In this document: one piece after another, positions 38,080 through 54,646 of the stretch | Position numbering within the stretch: position 1 is the first letter of the stretch | Layout: each line of letters begins with the position of its first letter | Source: a virus | Reading direction: 5' to 3' (one strand) | DNA length: 64,000 nucleotides | IMG/VR virus record: IMGVR_UViG_3300005095_000015 | Location: 31,676-95,675 of that record | Program-made: the position numbers and the translations under genes | Notes under the pieces: generated by a model | Told to the model about the DNA's origin: nothing | The model's input: the letters and a program-made list of their open reading frames with translations, nothing else | Databases searched by the model: none

Positions 38080-38113
38080 GCCCAGTCCCGCTCGCCGGGC
38101 TGGGTTTCTTTTT
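38080..38113 (+). terminator. Intrinsic terminator ending the late region
   Basis: CCCAGTCC (38081-38088) pairs with GGGCTGGG (38097-38104), one G-T pair, followed by TTTCTTTTT. Separates the late genes from the AAA+/VWA and replication region. Confidence 0.85.
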
Positions 38114-38268
38114 AGTAAAAATTCTTAAAAATTTGGAAAACCATTAGCGATCATCAAATAATTCCCTGTAATTAAGTTTAATCAACTTTATTTCAGATTT
38201 TTGAGACTTGTATTTTTAAAAAATCTTATTATATTTAAAAGTAAGAACAAAATAAGAGGAGGACAAAG
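38114..38268 (+). promoter_or_regulatory. AT-rich intergenic region with possible promoter
   Basis: 155 bp, strongly AT-rich, between terminator and MoxR gene. A candidate sigma70-type promoter is TTGTAT (38208-38213), 16 nt, TATATT (38230-38235). The TTTCATCTCT element used farther downstream is absent. RBS GAGGAGG precedes ATG 38269. Confidence 0.45.
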
Positions 38269-39165
38269 ATGAATAACATAAAAGAGTTTTTACTAAAATT
38301 AGCTGAGGCTGGTTACAAGGCCTCGGCTAAAGATGCCCTGGTTACCCAGGGCTGGCTTCTGTTGAATTCGAAGCCAGCCCAGCGGGTGCCAGGGCTTTTA
38401 TTATTAGGCCCCGCCGGGGCTGGCAAGACATTCTTCGTAGAATGTCTTGCCAAGGCTCTGAGCAGAGCTCTACTTCCCTACCAGTGCCATTACGGTACTG
38501 GTAGGGAAGAGCTTCTCTATGACCTTGATGTTAAGGGGGTCATAGAGAAGCTCAGTGGAGGCAAGGGAGATCTTGTCTCCTATCTCAGGCCTGGAATTCT
38601 CCCCCAGGCCATTCAAAAGGCAAATGAAGCAGGGGGGCACCCTGTTTTTCTGCTTCTGGATGAGTTAGATAAAACTCATCCGGAAGTGGACGCCTTCCTG
38701 CTTACATTCCTCCAGAGCGGGAGGGTATACGACCCGCATCTGGGGGAATTTGTCCTGGAGGAGGGAGCGCTGCTTTATGTCTGTGCTACCTCCAACCAGG
38801 AGCGCCTCCTCTCGGAACCTCTCATGAGGAGGTTCCGGAGGGTATACTGCAAATACCCTCCGGCCGAGGTGGAGGCGGAGATTATTCAAAGGGACTGCCC
38901 AGAGGCTCACCCTGCTTTTATAAAGGGTTTGGTTTCTGTGGCGGGCTGGCTCCGGAAGAGGGAGGATATTATTAAGCCTCCTTCTACTCCGGAGCTTATA
39001 AACCTTGCCCGGGATGTTCTTCTGCTGGACAATCCCGAGGCAAGGGCAGAGGTAGTCCTGTCCTGGCTTTGTGCTTATGAAGAGGATAGAGCTATTTTGG
39101 AACAGAAGTATCCCCGTTCTTGGTGGGTGGGGATGTTGCAGAACAAGGATATAAGGGGGGTTTAG
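38269..39165 (+). CDS. MoxR-type AAA+ ATPase
   Basis: 298 residues. Walker A GPAGAGKT (47-54), Walker B LLLDELD (128-134), sensor ATSN (173-176) and Arg-rich MRRFRR (186-191). MoxR ATPases remodel or insert metals into partner proteins together with a VWA protein, which here is the next gene. The coding sequence is clearly GC-richer than neighbouring genes. It is built of successive near-perfect inverted repeats (see the hairpin features), which its neighbours upstream lack. Recent acquisition or selection on mRNA structure are possible causes. Confidence 0.85.
   Translation: MNNIKEFLLKLAEAGYKASAKDALVTQGWLLLNSKPAQRVPGLLLLGPAGAGKTFFVECLAKALSRALLPYQCHYGTGREELLYDLDVKGVIEKLSGGKGDLVSYLRPGILPQAIQKANEAGGHPVFLLLDELDKTHPEVDAFLLTFLQSGRVYDPHLGEFVLEEGALLYVCATSNQERLLSEPLMRRFRRVYCKYPPAEVEAEIIQRDCPEAHPAFIKGLVSVAGWLRKREDIIKPPSTPELINLARDVLLLDNPEARAEVVLSWLCAYEEDRAILEQKYPRSWWVGMLQNKDIRGV
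38299..38453 (+). other. Coding hairpins H1-H5 in MoxR gene
   Basis: Successive stems: 38299-38309/38320-38330 (11 bp, one wobble); 38335-38341/38346-38352 (7 bp, 4-nt loop); 38349-38359/38370-38380 (11 bp); 38408-38412/38416-38420 (5 bp GC); 38421-38434/38439-38452 (14 bp perfect, loop TCGT). The stems abut or share a few bases. Confidence 0.9.
38473..38686 (+). other. Coding hairpins H7-H11 in MoxR gene
   Basis: 38473-38488/38494-38509 (16 bp, one wobble, 5-nt loop); 38509-38524/38538-38553 (16 bp perfect); 38557-38565/38572-38580 (9 bp); 38588-38594/38604-38610 (7 bp); 38653-38666/38673-38686 (14 bp, one wobble). Two 16-bp hairpins meet at base 38509. Confidence 0.9.
38707..39045 (+). other. 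Coding hairpins H12-H16 in MoxR gene
   Basis: An outer stem 38707-38715/38755-38763 encloses 38712-38721/38733-38743 (one bulge). Then 38813-38821/38829-38837 (9 bp), 38835-38845/38853-38863 (11 bp perfect) and 39003-39015/39032-39045 (13 bp with one bulged base). Confidence 0.85.
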
Positions 39166-40938
39166 ATGAAGTTCTATGTGGCATGGGGTGAACAAAGCAA
39201 AAGCTATTTAAGTTACTCTAGGAAAATCTCTGGACAGGTTATAATTAACTCGTCAAGATTGAAAACTTTATGCAGATTTCTACCCATAGAAAAAGATTTT
39301 CTGTACAAAGGTGTTATTTATCATTGGGACGGAGAGAATTTGTGGCTACAGGGAAAATTTAAATGTGAAAATCCAGATTACTTTCGTGAATGCTGGGGTA
39401 TCGATGACCCTTGGGGATACAAGAAAGCACCCGTAGAATGTCGCACTAAGTGCCTCATACAAAGAATAACACAATCATTATTTACCTATCTCGCTAAGAA
39501 GGCCAAGGAATCATCCGGTTTCTCCTGTACTCCTGAGAAGGAGGAAAGAGCTAAACCGGATGATTCCTTACACTCTCCTGCCTCTGCTGAGGCTGAGGAG
39601 CGAGAACAGCAGCAAAGTCATTCCGACTGCTCCAAAGCTGAGGCAGAGGGTACTGAGGATGCTCTTGAAACTTTACAAAGCGATGCTCAGAGCTCCTCGG
39701 AAAGTGCTGAGTACTCCTCAGGGGAGGATACTCAGCGCCAGGAGGGTGAGGGCTCTGCGGAAGCCCCGGACGCAGAGTCGCCAGGGTCTAACAGCGCAAT
39801 CGAGGAAATCGACGCACTGAAGATCCTGGAAGAAATTCTATCCGAGGGCACCGAGGAAGAGAGTTGCCAGGTTCGCTCTTCCTCGGACAGTACAGAGGCT
39901 GATGGGTCGCCCGCCTCTGCAGAGGCTGGGGCTGGCAAGGAGAAAGATTCCTCGCTGGATTCCCGCTCTGCAGGTGCCAGTGAAAGCAGGCAACAGGAGT
40001 CCCAGAAAAAAGATGAACCTGGCCGGGGCTCCTCTCCAGACGAGGAAGTCCTCTCTGACGAGGAGAGGGCTTCCAAAATTCTGGAGGAGTTTATATCTGA
40101 AGATAAAACGACTGACTCTTTAGATATAAGCTCCTCTGAGTCTAAATCTCTCTGGGAAATCAGTTACAACCCGAAAGAGGATCAACACTCCTACGGCGGA
40201 GGTGGCGGACAGGCAGGAGCACTCACTGCCAAGGATTCCTCTACTGCCTCTGAAAAAGAAGTCCTTTATCTCTTGAGAAGATTTTTCTCTGAAATAGAAG
40301 ATCTTTTTAGAAAGAAAGAAGGTTTTGACCGTTGGGATGCCAAGAAAGTAATTCGCTCTCTCACTATGGAACCTGGAGAACTTCCAAAAGCAAAGTTCTC
40401 CAGACAGAAATCGAGGAAAATCTCTCTCTGGGTCGATGTCAGTGGTAGTGTAAGTCATCTTACCAAATTTATAATCACCCTAATTACTGCCGCTTGCAAA
40501 GATAACGATGTCCAAGTAGTTATCGGTTCAGAAGCTCACCCAGAGAAAGTTCTCCCAAGAACATTTATCCACCAGGACAAAGACTGGTGGGATATAAGAG
40601 GAATGTGGGAGGCAGAATACATTTATGACTTTCATCTCCAAGTAAAGAAATTTCTAAAAGATAATTCTCTTCCAGCTGGCAGCACCATAGTTATCTGGAG
40701 CGATTACATGGATATTAATACAACAGATCTTAAAGAACTTTCCCGTCTACTCAAACCTTACAAGGTAGTCTGGCTCTGCTCCCACAATGGCAAGGATCCT
40801 GACTATAGAGGTAATGAGTCTTTCAAGATTGAAAGGTTTGCTAAAAAAGAAGGACATTTATTCCTCTGGGGTATTGACAGTCTCCAGGGAATTAAAAAAG
40901 CAATAAAGCAACTAAACATAAGGAGGTATAGGAGATGA
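39166..40938 (+). CDS. VWA-domain protein with Ser/Glu-rich linker
   Basis: 590 residues. An N-terminal domain (1-110, Trp/Tyr-rich) is followed by a very long low-complexity Ser/Glu/Ala/Asp linker (about 115-345). Residues 370-590 form a VWA domain with MIDAS D424-V-S-G-S428 and Asp513 in WSDYMD. A helix motif is duplicated in the linker (LKILEEILSEG, SKILEEFISED). It partners the MoxR ATPase, as in RavA-ViaA or chelatase pairs. The linker DNA contains 9-17-bp inverted repeats whose arms encode different residues. Overlaps the next gene by 4 nt. Confidence 0.8.
   Translation: MKFYVAWGEQSKSYLSYSRKISGQVIINSSRLKTLCRFLPIEKDFLYKGVIYHWDGENLWLQGKFKCENPDYFRECWGIDDPWGYKKAPVECRTKCLIQRITQSLFTYLAKKAKESSGFSCTPEKEERAKPDDSLHSPASAEAEEREQQQSHSDCSKAEAEGTEDALETLQSDAQSSSESAEYSSGEDTQRQEGEGSAEAPDAESPGSNSAIEEIDALKILEEILSEGTEEESCQVRSSSDSTEADGSPASAEAGAGKEKDSSLDSRSAGASESRQQESQKKDEPGRGSSPDEEVLSDEERASKILEEFISEDKTTDSLDISSSESKSLWEISYNPKEDQHSYGGGGGQAGALTAKDSSTASEKEVLYLLRRFFSEIEDLFRKKEGFDRWDAKKVIRSLTMEPGELPKAKFSRQKSRKISLWVDVSGSVSHLTKFIITLITAACKDNDVQVVIGSEAHPEKVLPRTFIHQDKDWWDIRGMWEAEYIYDFHLQVKKFLKDNSLPAGSTIVIWSDYMDINTTDLKELSRLLKPYKVVWLCSHNGKDPDYRGNESFKIERFAKKEGHLFLWGIDSLQGIKKAIKQLNIRRYRR
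39505..39886 (+). other. Coding hairpins in VWA linker, first group
   Basis: 39505-39521/39553-39569 (17 bp perfect, with an inner stem); 39704-39713/39729-39738 (10 bp, one wobble, inner CTCC/GGAG); 39751-39759/39771-39779 (9 bp, one wobble); 39851-39861/39876-39886 (11 bp perfect). Confidence 0.88.
40044..40403 (+). other. Coding hairpins in VWA linker and domain, second group
   Basis: 40044-40055/40063-40074 (12 bp, one wobble); 40084-40098/40122-40136 (15 bp, one wobble); 40373-40383/40393-40403 (11 bp perfect). After 40410 the density falls. Confidence 0.88.
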
Positions 40939-41321
40939 GCAAGTGGACAGACTTTGAAGTTAAACCAGAAGAAAAGAAAGCTATTGAGGTTCCTTTAGTT
41001 CCTCCTGGAAGTAGGATAGGCGTAAAACTGGAATTCCAGAAACCAAATCGTTGGGGATTTGGCTTGAAGCAAGTTATAAGACAAGCTTGCAAGGGATTTC
41101 CTGAGTATTTTCTTCCACTTGCAAATCCGTTTGAAGTCACTACTACAGAAGGGGAAAAGATAACCATTGATACTCTCGGCAAGTGGGCTTTTGGTACCCC
41201 TGGTTGGGCAAGTAGGTTGCTATTCGAGGGTGGCGAGTCAAAAAAGATTGTCATCTATGTACCTAAGAATGTACCGCAAGAGCTTGTTTCGCTACTGCAG
41301 AAAGCAGTAGAAAGTTTGTAG
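40935..41321 (+). CDS. Hypothetical protein following VWA gene
   Basis: 128 residues, coupled by ATGA to the VWA gene, beta-rich with a C-terminal helix. Base composition has returned to the phage average. A possible substrate or partner of the MoxR/VWA pair by position; no family recognised. Confidence 0.55.
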   Translation: MSKWTDFEVKPEEKKAIEVPLVPPGSRIGVKLEFQKPNRWGFGLKQVIRQACKGFPEYFLPLANPFEVTTTEGEKITIDTLGKWAFGTPGWASRLLFEGGESKKIVIYVPKNVPQELVSLLQKAVESL

Positions 41322-51102: not shown

Positions 51103-51645
51103 ATGGAAACAAAATTACCACTCAAATGTCCCGATTGTAGTTGTGATGATATAAAAACATGGACACTTATGCATAATGGTAAGTATTTACTAACAGTGTT
51201 TTATTGTCCTGAGTGTAATCACTTTGATGTTATACCATTGACTGCTTCACCAAGGAAACAAGGCGCTTCATCAGAGATCAAAGTTACGGTTACTAAGAAG
51301 TTTGCTTTTGATTTTGCTCACAAGCTCCCAGGTTACAAGGGATCATGTGGTAAACTTCATGGGCATAGAGGGATTCTAGAAGTAGAAGTCAGTGGGCCTC
51401 CAAAGAATTCCGGGGAAGTTTATGCTACAATGGTGCTTGATTTCAATGATTTGAAAAAGATTATTCATGAAAAAGTTATTTCTAAATTTGATCATGCTTA
51501 TTTGAATGATTTCTTTCAATACCCTACAGCTGAAGAGATGGTTAGATATGTGGTAAAAGTCTTGAAAAGCGAGTTTGATGACAATCTTGTAAGGGTTAGA
51601 TTCTATGAGACGCCGGATAGCTATGCTGAATGGAAGAAGGAATAA
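51103..51645 (+). CDS. queD: QueD, 6-carboxytetrahydropterin synthase with zinc ribbon
   Basis: 180 residues. Residues 60-180 are the QueD/PTPS fold: His73, Cys82, His86 and His88 (CGKLHGH) supply the catalytic Cys and zinc ligands, with FDHAYLN downstream. Converts dihydroneopterin triphosphate to carboxytetrahydropterin in preQ0 synthesis. Residues 1-45 are an unusual N-terminal zinc ribbon (C9, C12, C35, C38). Confidence 0.88.
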   Translation: METKLPLKCPDCSCDDIKTWTLMHNGKYLLTVFYCPECNHFDVIPLTASPRKQGASSEIKVTVTKKFAFDFAHKLPGYKGSCGKLHGHRGILEVEVSGPPKNSGEVYATMVLDFNDLKKIIHEKVISKFDHAYLNDFFQYPTAEEMVRYVVKVLKSEFDDNLVRVRFYETPDSYAEWKKE

Positions 51646-51648
51646 CCA

Positions 51649-51897
51649 ATGAGTGAACAAAACAGATTTTACCAGTATCTGAAGGACTCTGAAGGTATTC
51701 CGTTAAGCGATGTAAGGTTGCTCTATCCGTACTATGGCGGAGTGGATGGAACCAAGATGCATATTAGTTTGAATTATGTTGATATAGAGTGCGAAGAGTG
51801 CGGTTACGGTTCTGAGGCAGATATAACTATTAGAGTTTTATGTGATAATCGTCAGAGGGTTATACATTGGCGCAAAATAACTCTCTACGGAGGATAG
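51649..51897 (+). CDS. Small protein between queD and queE
   Basis: 82 residues with C-x2-C (IECEECGYG) and a beta-rich rest. Located between two deazaguanine genes and overlapped by the queE ribosome binding site. Unknown; possibly a pathway accessory. Confidence 0.55.
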   Translation: MSEQNRFYQYLKDSEGIPLSDVRLLYPYYGGVDGTKMHISLNYVDIECEECGYGSEADITIRVLCDNRQRVIHWRKITLYGG

Positions 51898-51899
51898 CT

Positions 51900-52589
51900 A
51901 TGCAGCACTTTCCGGTAGTAGAAGCTTTCAAGTCTATACAGGGAGAAGGTCCCTTTGCGGGACATCCTGCATTCTTCCTGCGGGTTAAGAAGTGTAATTA
52001 CAATGGTGAATGCATTGTCGGTTGCGATACTATTCCAAGAACTAGGAATTTGGAAGAGTTGCTTATTCCTTATGATTCTGTCTTGCAGAAGGCTAAAGAA
52101 GTGGGCAGGATCGTAATAACAGGCGGCGAACCTACTTTGTACTATGCGGAGGTAGTCAATTTGCTTAAGTATCTCGATACTTGGTTAGAGCCAGATAAGC
52201 AAGTGTTTGTGGAGATAGAAACTAATGGTTACTTGTTACACGAACTTCTTTCTGAGCTTCCTCATTTCACTCATCTCAAGATATGGATCAATTGGAGTCC
52301 TAAAGAATACAGCATAAATAACTTTCGGCTCAAATATGATCAATGCAAACAACTTCGTGCATCTTATATTACAGGTTATTGTATCAAAGTTGTGGTTTGG
52401 GATTCTATGAAAGTTAAAACTTTTGTCATTGATTTAGTTGAAGCAGGTTTCAGTAAAGCTCTTTGGCTTATGCCGAGAGGAAAGACAGCAGAAGAACTTA
52501 AGCAATCTTGGCCTGTAGTGTATAAGCTTGCAATGGAGTATAATCTAAAGATTTCGGGTAGGTTGCAAATTGAAGGACAAATTTTATGA
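51900..52589 (+). CDS. queE: QueE, 7-carboxy-7-deazaguanine synthase
   Basis: 229 residues from ATG 51900 (GGAGG upstream; ATG 51867 is inside the previous gene). Opens with VVEAFKSIQGEGPFAG, typical of QueE, then GGEP (75-78). The radical-SAM cluster Cys are C32, C38 and C42, spaced C-x5-C-x3-C instead of C-x3-C-x2-C. Converts carboxytetrahydropterin to carboxydeazaguanine. Confidence 0.82.
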   Translation: MQHFPVVEAFKSIQGEGPFAGHPAFFLRVKKCNYNGECIVGCDTIPRTRNLEELLIPYDSVLQKAKEVGRIVITGGEPTLYYAEVVNLLKYLDTWLEPDKQVFVEIETNGYLLHELLSELPHFTHLKIWINWSPKEYSINNFRLKYDQCKQLRASYITGYCIKVVVWDSMKVKTFVIDLVEAGFSKALWLMPRGKTAEELKQSWPVVYKLAMEYNLKISGRLQIEGQIL

Positions 52590-52596
52590 TATTTTG

Positions 52597-52625
52597 TTTC
52601 ATCTCTGATGTCGATATCATATTAT
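52597..52625 (+). promoter_or_regulatory. TTTCATCTCT promoter, copy 3 (divergent)
   Basis: TTTCAT (52597-52602), CTCT, then a divergent spacer of the same 17 nt, and TATTAT (52620-52625). The spacer includes a GATATC repeat. Reads into the gene at 52671. Confidence 0.7.
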
Positions 52626-52670
52626 CATATAATATAAGATGAAGGAGAAAATAGTAAGGAGGTAGGAGAG

Positions 52671-53288
52671 ATGAAGGATGCAAAAGAGATCAGCGTAAGA
52701 GCTTTACTTAAAGCCATAAAGGATTTTAATGAATTGGAAATCATGGAACCTATTGAGATTCCCAACAAGAAGCGCCTTACGAGAAAAGATATAGAGCGTC
52801 TTAGAGATGAGTTTGTTGATGCGATTGAGAGTCTGACTGAAGATGAGGAAGAGTTGCTGCCTGATAGTGTGGTGGACATGTATCATGATATAGTTGCTGA
52901 TGAGTTAGAGGAAGAATATGATGAGGAGAAAGTCGAGGTTCAGGCTGAAGAGATTCCGGTTGGTCCTGCGGGGCAGAAAGCTAAAGAAGAATTTAAACAG
53001 CAGAGTGCAAAGCTTCGATCTTCTGCTATTCAGGTCAATATTGTGAAGGAAAAATCTAAAAGTGAGCAAAAGGTTAAGAAAGGTAAAGGTGAAAGGTTAG
53101 CCTTTTTAGAAACACTTATTGCGGAGGGTAAACACACGGTAGAAGCTATTGTTGAGATGTATGTGAAGAAGTTTGGAACTTCTCCTAATACAGTTAAAAC
53201 CTATATCTATGATGGAAAGAATCCCAAATACTGTAAGTTTTCTAAGCTTGTTAAGATTGAGAATGGTATTGTTAAGTTTGAAGAATAA
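52671..53288 (+). CDS. Hypothetical acidic protein with C-terminal HTH-like part
   Basis: 205 residues. Acidic N-terminal half; residues 140-185 (LAFLETLIAEGKHTVEAIVEMYVKKFG, shown in part) look like a helix-turn-helix with a following basic beta pair. It sits between queE and queC behind promoter copy 3. Possible regulator; not recognised. Confidence 0.55.
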   Translation: MKDAKEISVRALLKAIKDFNELEIMEPIEIPNKKRLTRKDIERLRDEFVDAIESLTEDEEELLPDSVVDMYHDIVADELEEEYDEEKVEVQAEEIPVGPAGQKAKEEFKQQSAKLRSSAIQVNIVKEKSKSEQKVKKGKGERLAFLETLIAEGKHTVEAIVEMYVKKFGTSPNTVKTYIYDGKNPKYCKFSKLVKIENGIVKFEE

Positions 53289-53310
53289 AGTAGATAAGAG
53301 GAGGTAGGTC

Positions 53311-54036
53311 ATGAATGATTTGTTAGGAAAACCGAAAAGGGCTTTGGTAGTCTTGTCAGGAGGGCAAGACTCTACCACCACACTTTTCATTGCTATTCAT
53401 AGGTATGGGTTTAAAGACATTTTAGCTCTCACATTTGATTACAAACAGCGCCATAGGATTGAGATTGAGGCGGCTAAGAAGGTGGTAGAGGTTGCGAGTG
53501 AGTATTGCGATAAGATTGAGCACAGAATTATCAACACAGAGATTATGAGAGAGATTGGTGAGTCTGCTCTTTTGAATACTGAAGATGATATTTCTGTGGC
53601 GCACAAAAGGGATAGCAATTTGCCTGCAAGCTTTCTACCAGGTAGAAATCTTATCTTTCTTACTGCCGCAGCTATGATTGCTTATAGTGAGAGGATCCAT
53701 GATATCTTCACTGGTGTATGCCAAACAGACTATTCTGGTTATCCTGATTGTCGCGACGCTACAATCAAAGCCCTCAATGTTACTTTAGATCTTGGAATGG
53801 ATTATCAATTTAGGATTCATACTCCTATGATGTGGATAACTAAGAAGGAAGAGGTAGAGCTTGCTACCACTTTGCCCGGTTGTATGGAAGCACTCGCTTA
53901 TAGCCATACTTGTTACAATGGTAAGTTCCCACCTTGTGGTGAATGTCCTGCGTGTAAACTTAGAGCAAAAGGGTTTGAGGAGGCAGGAATTGAAGATCCT
54001 TTGATTACAAGAGTTAAAAAAGAAGGATTGTTCTAA
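53311..54036 (+). CDS. queC: QueC, preQ0 synthase
   Basis: 241 residues. ATP pyrophosphatase P-loop SGGQDST (16-22), and a C-terminal zinc site (CYNGKFPPCGECPAC). Converts carboxydeazaguanine to preQ0 using ATP and ammonia. Confidence 0.92.
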   Translation: MNDLLGKPKRALVVLSGGQDSTTTLFIAIHRYGFKDILALTFDYKQRHRIEIEAAKKVVEVASEYCDKIEHRIINTEIMREIGESALLNTEDDISVAHKRDSNLPASFLPGRNLIFLTAAAMIAYSERIHDIFTGVCQTDYSGYPDCRDATIKALNVTLDLGMDYQFRIHTPMMWITKKEEVELATTLPGCMEALAYSHTCYNGKFPPCGECPACKLRAKGFEEAGIEDPLITRVKKEGLF

Positions 54037-54046
54037 GGAGGGGCAA

Positions 54047-54646
54047 ATGAAAAGAGTGTCTCTGTTTGAGAAAGATATTGAGGATACACTTAAAGGATTT
54101 ATACGGTTGCTTTTTGAATGGGTAGGAGAAGATCCGGCAAGGGATGGTTTGAGGGAGACTCCTGATCGTATAGTGAGGATGTGGAAGGAAATTTTTAGAG
54201 GATATGATCCTGCACAGAAGCCGAAGGTTACTGTGTTTGAGAATGGCGGGGATGTAAAGTATTCTGGTATGATTATAGACCATGGTTATTTTTTCTCTAT
54301 TTGTGAGCATCATATGGTACCTTTCTTTGGTCATTACTATTTTGGTTACATACCTGATAAATGGCTTGTAGGTGCGAGTAAGATAGGAAGAGTGGTTGAT
54401 TATTTCTCTGCGAGGCTTCAGGTTCAGGAGAGGCTTTGTGAGCAGATTGCGGATTTCTTTGATGAGGTGTTGAAGCCCAAAGGATTGATTGTACTCATGA
54501 GAGGTAGACATCTCTGTAAAGAGATGCGTGGGTTGAGAAAGTACAATTCTCCTTTTGAAACCATAGCGGTGAGGGGGGTGTTTGAGAGAAATGAAGATGG
54601 TTGTAAGGATGAGTTTATGTCAAGAGTTTTAAATATTAGAGATTAG
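54047..54646 (+). CDS. folE: GTP cyclohydrolase I
   Basis: 199 residues. FolE type I signatures: ICEHHMVPFFGH, VGASKIGRVVDYFSARLQVQERL (shown in part) and RHLCKEMRG with the zinc Cys/His. Makes dihydroneopterin triphosphate, the pathway's first step. Starts 10 nt after queC. Confidence 0.92.
   Translation: MKRVSLFEKDIEDTLKGFIRLLFEWVGEDPARDGLRETPDRIVRMWKEIFRGYDPAQKPKVTVFENGGDVKYSGMIIDHGYFFSICEHHMVPFFGHYYFGYIPDKWLVGASKIGRVVDYFSARLQVQERLCEQIADFFDEVLKPKGLIVLMRGRHLCKEMRGLRKYNSPFETIAVRGVFERNEDGCKDEFMSRVLNIRD

Follow-up and report, generated by a model that had tools for sequence, protein, structure and literature searches.

Heavy folding of coding RNA is a known trait of RNA viruses. In the genome-scale ordered RNA structure (GORS) of some of them and in highly backfolded viral open reading frames (ORFs), whole genes are folded beyond the level of their codon shuffles, and it has been proposed that such backfolded ORFs are inaccessible to small guide RNAs (PMC6544989). 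A second form of folded coding sequence has been described in nematomorph mitochondria, where inverted repeats lie within conserved genes and hairpins are gained and lost between species (PMC6649704). As for the proteins considered here, the pairs of MoxR and vWA genes found in jumbo phages, Acidianus two-tailed virus, and haloviruses have been interpreted as a chaperone with its adaptor, possibly involved in virion assembly (PMC7824862, PMC7911831). The present analysis deals with such a pair, a MoxR-type AAA+ ATPase gene followed directly by a VWA-domain gene, in a stretch of 64,000 nucleotides (bases 31676-95675, hereafter the window) of the 95,675-base DNA virus record IMGVR_UViG_3300005095_000015, which consists of one contig. 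The synonymous codons of this pair are ordered in such a way that the message is predicted to fold into a chain of hairpins.

Every structure in this analysis is a prediction. Folding was scored in intervals of 120 nucleotides (nt) at 37 C, and d denotes the folding energy per nt, observed minus codon-shuffled, where the shuffle permutes synonymous codons within each gene and thus keeps both the protein and its codon usage. The MoxR gene reaches -0.45 kcal/nt compared with -0.29 in these shuffles (Z -14.4, d -0.162), and the VWA gene shows a gene-level Z of -6.6. When the intervals of 69 genes were compared with their codon shuffles, the mean interval Z was -4.65 in MoxR (-59.0 observed vs. 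-36.6 kcal per 120 nt) and -0.95 in VWA, with local minima near -3.7, while the remaining genes of the window ranged from -1.21 to +0.54. Shuffles that preserve dinucleotides instead gave a z of -20.96 for positions 38299-39165. Predicted folding turns the MoxR message into a series of hairpins that touch one another (-0.50 kcal/nt). The whole 64 kb contains 11 perfect stems with 10 or more base pairs (bp; loop of 3-40), and 8 of them are located at 38349-40403. In the folding model at 80 C, the excess persists (-135 kcal vs. -50 kcal for shuffles). These results confirm the hairpin chain, which chance comes nowhere near explaining, and the shuffles show that the excess structure arises from the ordering of synonymous codons and is concentrated in the MoxR and VWA genes. 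The control set, 252 genes from related phages, has a mean d of -0.0095 (sd 0.0155) and a minimum of -0.063. The RNA phage MS2, taken as a yardstick, yields -0.061 for its maturation gene and -0.081 for its replicase gene, so that the MoxR message exceeds its shuffles by roughly double the margin seen in genes of MS2.

An earlier note made from the sequence of the window had pointed to this chain, and all of its best stems were found in the two genes at the places it gave (Table 1). It had also named codon-preserving shuffles as a check, which left the folding of MoxR well beyond the shuffles and the other genes near zero. The chain that it drew from 38299 to 40403 is real but interrupted. The excess spans nearly the whole MoxR ORF (38269-39165), falls to about nil at 39166-39465, and reappears at 39466-40125 in the linker of the VWA protein, where d lies between -0.05 and -0.15 with values of about 0 on either side. 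There are two blocks instead of one continuous run, with little or no excess over the VWA domain and the gene that follows.

Direct protein searches of viral contigs provided no close relatives of the window MoxR and VWA proteins, and the phages related by tail sheath or helicase had no match to the cassette. A protein profile of distant MoxR, used after these direct searches, yielded homologues, whose loci are denoted here by L-numbers. The hyper-folding is also present in homologues only 23-31% identical, namely those of the phage contig L064, of plasmid pTHEAM01 of Thermovibrio ammonificans HB-1 (cassette L139; WP_013524931.1, WP_013524932.1), to which a search of plasmids led, and of the loci L165 and L166. 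In L064, whose MoxR is ~30% identical to that of the window, MoxR has a d of -0.135 (Z -15.1) and VWA a Z of -10.6, and the neighbouring genes, which run the other way, have values close to zero. In pTHEAM01, the cassette lies on the + strand and adjoins - strand genes; its MoxR (d -0.128, Z -12.3) and VWA (d -0.086, Z -10.1) stand beside 13 flanking genes with d from +0.006 to -0.042. The MoxR of the Gloeobacter morelensis plasmid pGMOR1 (L051, 151760-158473) shows a Z of -6 to -8. Moreover, a blind test with the protein profile A8 over ~1,900 genomes from five phyla and some subgroups recovered true members in only two genomes, each on a contig of <6 kb: L165, from the phylum of a Desulfatitalea genome (MoxR d -0.08), and L166, from the phylum of an Azospirillum genome (MoxR d -0.145, VWA d -0.079). 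For ordinary MoxR genes of the first genome set, d ranged from -0.017 to +0.007. Taken together, the d values of 14 MoxR genes of the mobile type are all lower than those of 14 other, mostly cellular, MoxR genes, without overlap (Mann-Whitney p 4e-6, a value that counts related genes as independent, in a grouping that was made once d was known, except for L165 and L166). Genes of other architectures with intermediate d stand outside this comparison (L063 -0.023, L118 -0.021, L119 -0.014). When 15 loci, among them some with intermediate genes, were tested in pairs, MoxR again exceeded the median of its neighbours in folding (p 0.003). On the tree, the folding trait requires a single change, with modest branch support (67/73) and a long branch for the window's own sequence.

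Pairing at the level of DNA only would raise the folding of both strands equally. Among the 18 genes of the family, however, the gain over shuffles is larger for the sense than for the antisense strand in 16 (family mean z -1.41, Stouffer -6.0), whereas 34 control genes of the window average +0.19, and G-U pairs shift in the same direction as this sense-strand advantage. This gain favours selection on mRNA over a DNA-level cause, and we regard selection at the RNA level as probable. The residues encoded in stem arms diverge from the family consensus no more than other residues, so the hairpins are not bought with damage to the protein. The positions of helices and the sequences of their arms vary among family members, which disfavours a fixed-sequence form of the nuclease or packaging signal that had been suggested earlier. 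Since no single helix is conserved and there is no covariation, what is kept is foldedness as such and not a particular fold, as in the GORS of some RNA viruses. Therefore, the earlier proposal of selection on mRNA folding stands as regards the shuffles, the sense-strand advantage, and the recurrence in homologues, but not as regards particular stems, which are not kept. No family reached its cut-off in an Rfam search. Thus, neither conserved covarying helices nor a known family, by which a conserved cis-acting RNA element would be recognized, were found for the hairpin chain.

The explanation to which we give an even chance is that a mobile-element type of the MoxR-VWA pair is under selection for a sense mRNA folded along its length and kept inaccessible to nucleases or guides. 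The probability that inaccessibility or persistence is the purpose, once RNA-level selection is granted, is also about one half, and this part is what we infer. The creation of the fold by the codon order, its specificity for the gene pair, its recurrence with the protein family, and its preference for the sense strand are the steps seen in the data. Such global folding, independent of sequence, could then hide the message from single-strand-specific nucleases or guide RNAs, so that production of MoxR and VWA would continue while other messages are destroyed, the hairpins presumably being unwound by ribosomes during translation. Several points weigh against this explanation. Among members with 59-70% protein identity, changes on both sides of a pair were not above codon shuffles, so that the covariation check named earlier found no compensatory excess, and in the alignment of L055-L059 the covariation term was unfavourable. 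A single synonymous pair that is compensated between L064 and L113 (CTCTTGGTC/GACCAAGAG to CTCCTGGTC/GACCAGGAG) is clear but isolated. Several members (L060, L061, L063, L118) show a modest excess only. A stricter count of G-T vs. A-C mismatches, restricted to stems chosen without regard to strand, gave 34 to 15 at one threshold (34 where 26 are expected, p 0.017) and 84 to 63 at the other (p 0.11), which is no more than suggestive; MS2 shows no bias in the same count. Finally, other genes of the same phage carry no such protection.

Pacing of translation by the hairpins is unlikely to be the answer, although parts of the arrangement would suit it. Slowed ribosomes could couple VWA to MoxR synthesis and thereby set the stoichiometry of a MoxR ring and its VWA adaptor, or assist co-translational folding. 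In the window, L064, L139, L165, and L166, the VWA frame touches or overlaps that of MoxR, the ribosome-binding site of the L064 VWA gene lies inside a predicted hairpin, and the 3' part of the window MoxR is predicted to pair near the VWA start. However, the start regions vary in predicted accessibility (0.23-0.61 unpaired) and are not all closed, the structure of whole genes far exceeds the needs of coupling, with helix positions that are not conserved, and cellular MoxR-VWA pairs share the architecture without the structure.

Rather unlikely, too, is the template-switch (quasi-palindrome) correction proposed in the earlier note, a process at the DNA level, perhaps in elements that often go through a single-stranded DNA stage, whose products would be tolerated where the protein permits and have no RNA function. 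Many long, near-perfect stems and the turnover of helices without covariation fit it, and the process has been discussed for the coding palindromes of nematomorph mitochondria (PMC6649704). Nevertheless, it predicts no sense preference, contrary to the folding energies (combined z of -6 against +0.19 in controls), although the direct mismatch counts are only suggestive; it should not single out one and the same gene pair in unrelated elements and leave all neighbours untouched, and the erosion of protein conservation expected in the arms is not seen.

A quite improbable possibility is that MoxR-VWA constitutes a defence or counter-defence module causing the destruction of single-stranded RNA, from which its own folded message would be exempt; in a variant, the message would act as an RNA inhibitor, whose loss at shut-off triggers the complex. 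If this were true, discrimination between self and non-self would be encoded in synonymous codons. A PADLOC search of defence families returned weak AAA-motif matches only.

It is more doubtful still that the folded message acts in trans by binding the MoxR-VWA complex as a scaffold, autoregulator, or RNA inhibitor. The trait does track the protein family and ends at the third gene, but no loop, motif, or helix is conserved among members, no Rfam match passes a family's cut-off, and the Pfam search recognized no RNA-binding domain in either protein. Chance, codon or GC bias, and assembly artefact can practically be dismissed: MoxR has the highest GC content at third codon positions (GC3) of the window genes (0.557, mean 0.359) and the record is a single contig, but the null models preserve protein and codon usage, or dinucleotides, the trait occurs in two L064-type records (identical save two unread bases) and in the complete pTHEAM01 record of a cultured bacterium, and the results for pTHEAM01, L165, and L166 effectively refute such causes for the whole family.

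The features of the cassette are collected in Table 1. The candidate terminator would close the upstream transcript, so the cassette probably begins a new one; a promoter scan of its upstream region (spacing 16-18) did not report the promoter seen by eye. With an AAA_5-type domain, Walker A (GPAGAGKT) and Walker B (LLLDELDK) motifs, and an adjacent VWA gene, the first protein is by its sequence a MoxR AAA+ ATPase. Its best NCBIfam match is the MadB family AAA-type ATPase (NF047784, E 1.3e-25), of which it is not a member by that model (90 bits vs. a cut-off of 475). The Pfam profile VWA_CoxE matches the window VWA protein below its cut-off (E 0.0011, 18.8 bits vs. a gathering score of 26.4), and it is also weak on the viral and plasmid VWA partners. 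The third gene is a weak homologue of the gene at the same position in the Thermovibrio plasmid (L139:8463-8816; 41% identity over 51 amino acids (aa), E 3.5e-4 in a small comparison), and this small gene, weakly common to phage and plasmid, may belong to the cassette as its third component.

Table 1. Predicted genes, signals, and hairpins of the MoxR-VWA cassette (positions in the window)
Feature	Position	Strand	Details
Rho-independent-type terminator	38080..38105	+	9-pair stem followed by TTTCTTTTT; candidate by match to consensus
Putative promoter and short leader	38190..38268	+	TTGAGA and TATTAT by eye, spacing ~19-20; weak evidence
Shine-Dalgarno AGGAGG	38257-38262	+	
MoxR-type AAA+ ATPase gene	38269..39165	+	298 aa; Pfam AAA_5 1.8e-14; hyper-structured
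Most crowded run of touching hairpins	38299..38570	+	38349-38380, 38421-38452, 38473-38509, 38509-38553, and neighbours
Perfect 14-bp stem	38421-38434/38439-38452		MoxR gene
Stem, 15/16 pairs Watson-Crick	38473-38488/38494-38509		remaining pair G-U; abuts stem 38509-38553
Perfect 16-bp stem	38509-38524/38538-38553		
VWA-domain (CoxE-like) gene	39166..40938	+	590 aa; start codon immediately after MoxR stop; MIDAS-like DVSGS
Second hairpin block	39466..40125	+	acidic, Ser-rich linker of VWA protein
Perfect 17-bp stem	39505-39521/39553-39569		VWA linker block
Stem with 20-nt arms	40084-40103/40117-40136		90% complementary; includes the 15-bp stem of the earlier note
Third gene	40935..41321	+	128 aa; unstructured, d about 0

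Further observations concern the surroundings of the homologues. In L064, a gene of 116 aa immediately upstream of MoxR on the same strand (L064:3619-3969) is structured as well (Z about -4.7), and together the three genes resemble a moron-type cassette, with the flanking phage genes on the other strand. The MoxR-VWA pair of pGMOR1 lies beside type I-D cas3 and DNA methyltransferase genes. Two phage genes that are neither MoxR nor VWA, L055:425-1105 and L118:9251-10060, have a strong codon-shuffle excess (Z -8.2 and -9.4), and several genes of these phages are mildly structured. Elsewhere in the window, the proteins encoded at 51103-54646 resemble a set for queuosine or 7-deazaguanine precursors (QueD-, QueE-, QueC-, and FolE-like), which suggests that the phage DNA may be modified.

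Some candidate properties of the trait were set aside. The codon register of stems was uneven in a small first count and non-significant in a larger one. Foreign-gene GC was rejected as a cause: GC3 is 0.38, near that of the genome, at unpaired third positions and 0.63 at paired ones, a comparison biased by minimum-free-energy pairing. A restriction to thermophiles is weakened by the folding excess of Gloeobacter, L054, and L067; hyperthermophiles have been reported to show weaker folding bias (PMC7063772). The hairpin-rich places of L040 and L042 consist mainly of short dispersed GTTGGATAA-type repeats, unlike the coding hairpin chain; in these phages, related through the replicative-helicase-like gene (L042:6800-15500, L040:14990-18500), the repeats occur in both orientations and the many resulting inverted repeats are largely intergenic.

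Compared with known systems, the pair shares the adjacency of an AAA+ MoxR gene and a vWA gene with the viral pairs described above, whose accounts do not mention mRNA structure in their accessible portions (PMC7824862, PMC7911831); HHTV-2 gp10, folded here, shows no excess (d -0.007). That MoxR-VWA also occurs on plasmids of Thermovibrio and Gloeobacter speaks against a function in the virion alone. Cellular CoxD/CoxE-type pairs have the same two-gene architecture, with a MoxR ~30-33% identical over the matched part, and the MoxR of cellular metabolic operons has no excess folding (d -0.003 to +0.013), so that folding becomes a signature separating the mobile MoxR-VWA type from metabolic types. 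In their available parts, two surveys of how coding sequences are biased in folding mention no family of this sort (PMC6544989, PMC7063772), and a gene family of DNA elements that keeps foldedness across phages, plasmids, and hosts without particular hairpins was not found in the open-licence literature searched. The nematomorph repeats likewise come and go within conserved genes, but they are perfect, up to 284 bp long, and spread over many genes, whereas the stems here are ~10-20 bp, touching, contain G-U pairs, and are confined to one gene pair. The family thus offers a natural system, with the cultured host Thermovibrio ammonificans HB-1, for the question of why mRNA foldedness as such is selected. 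Its closest likeness is to GORS: MS2 has a sense-strand advantage and a G-U shift of similar sign, and in the hairpin chain, as in GORS, the folding energy of whole genes lies below that of shuffled sequences. However, the chain is limited to one gene pair, carried by a DNA phage, a plasmid, or a genome fragment, among unfolded neighbours and with an excess up to ~2x that of MS2, and it lacks the whole-genome spread of RNA viruses. Therefore, it works like GORS without being a member of that class.
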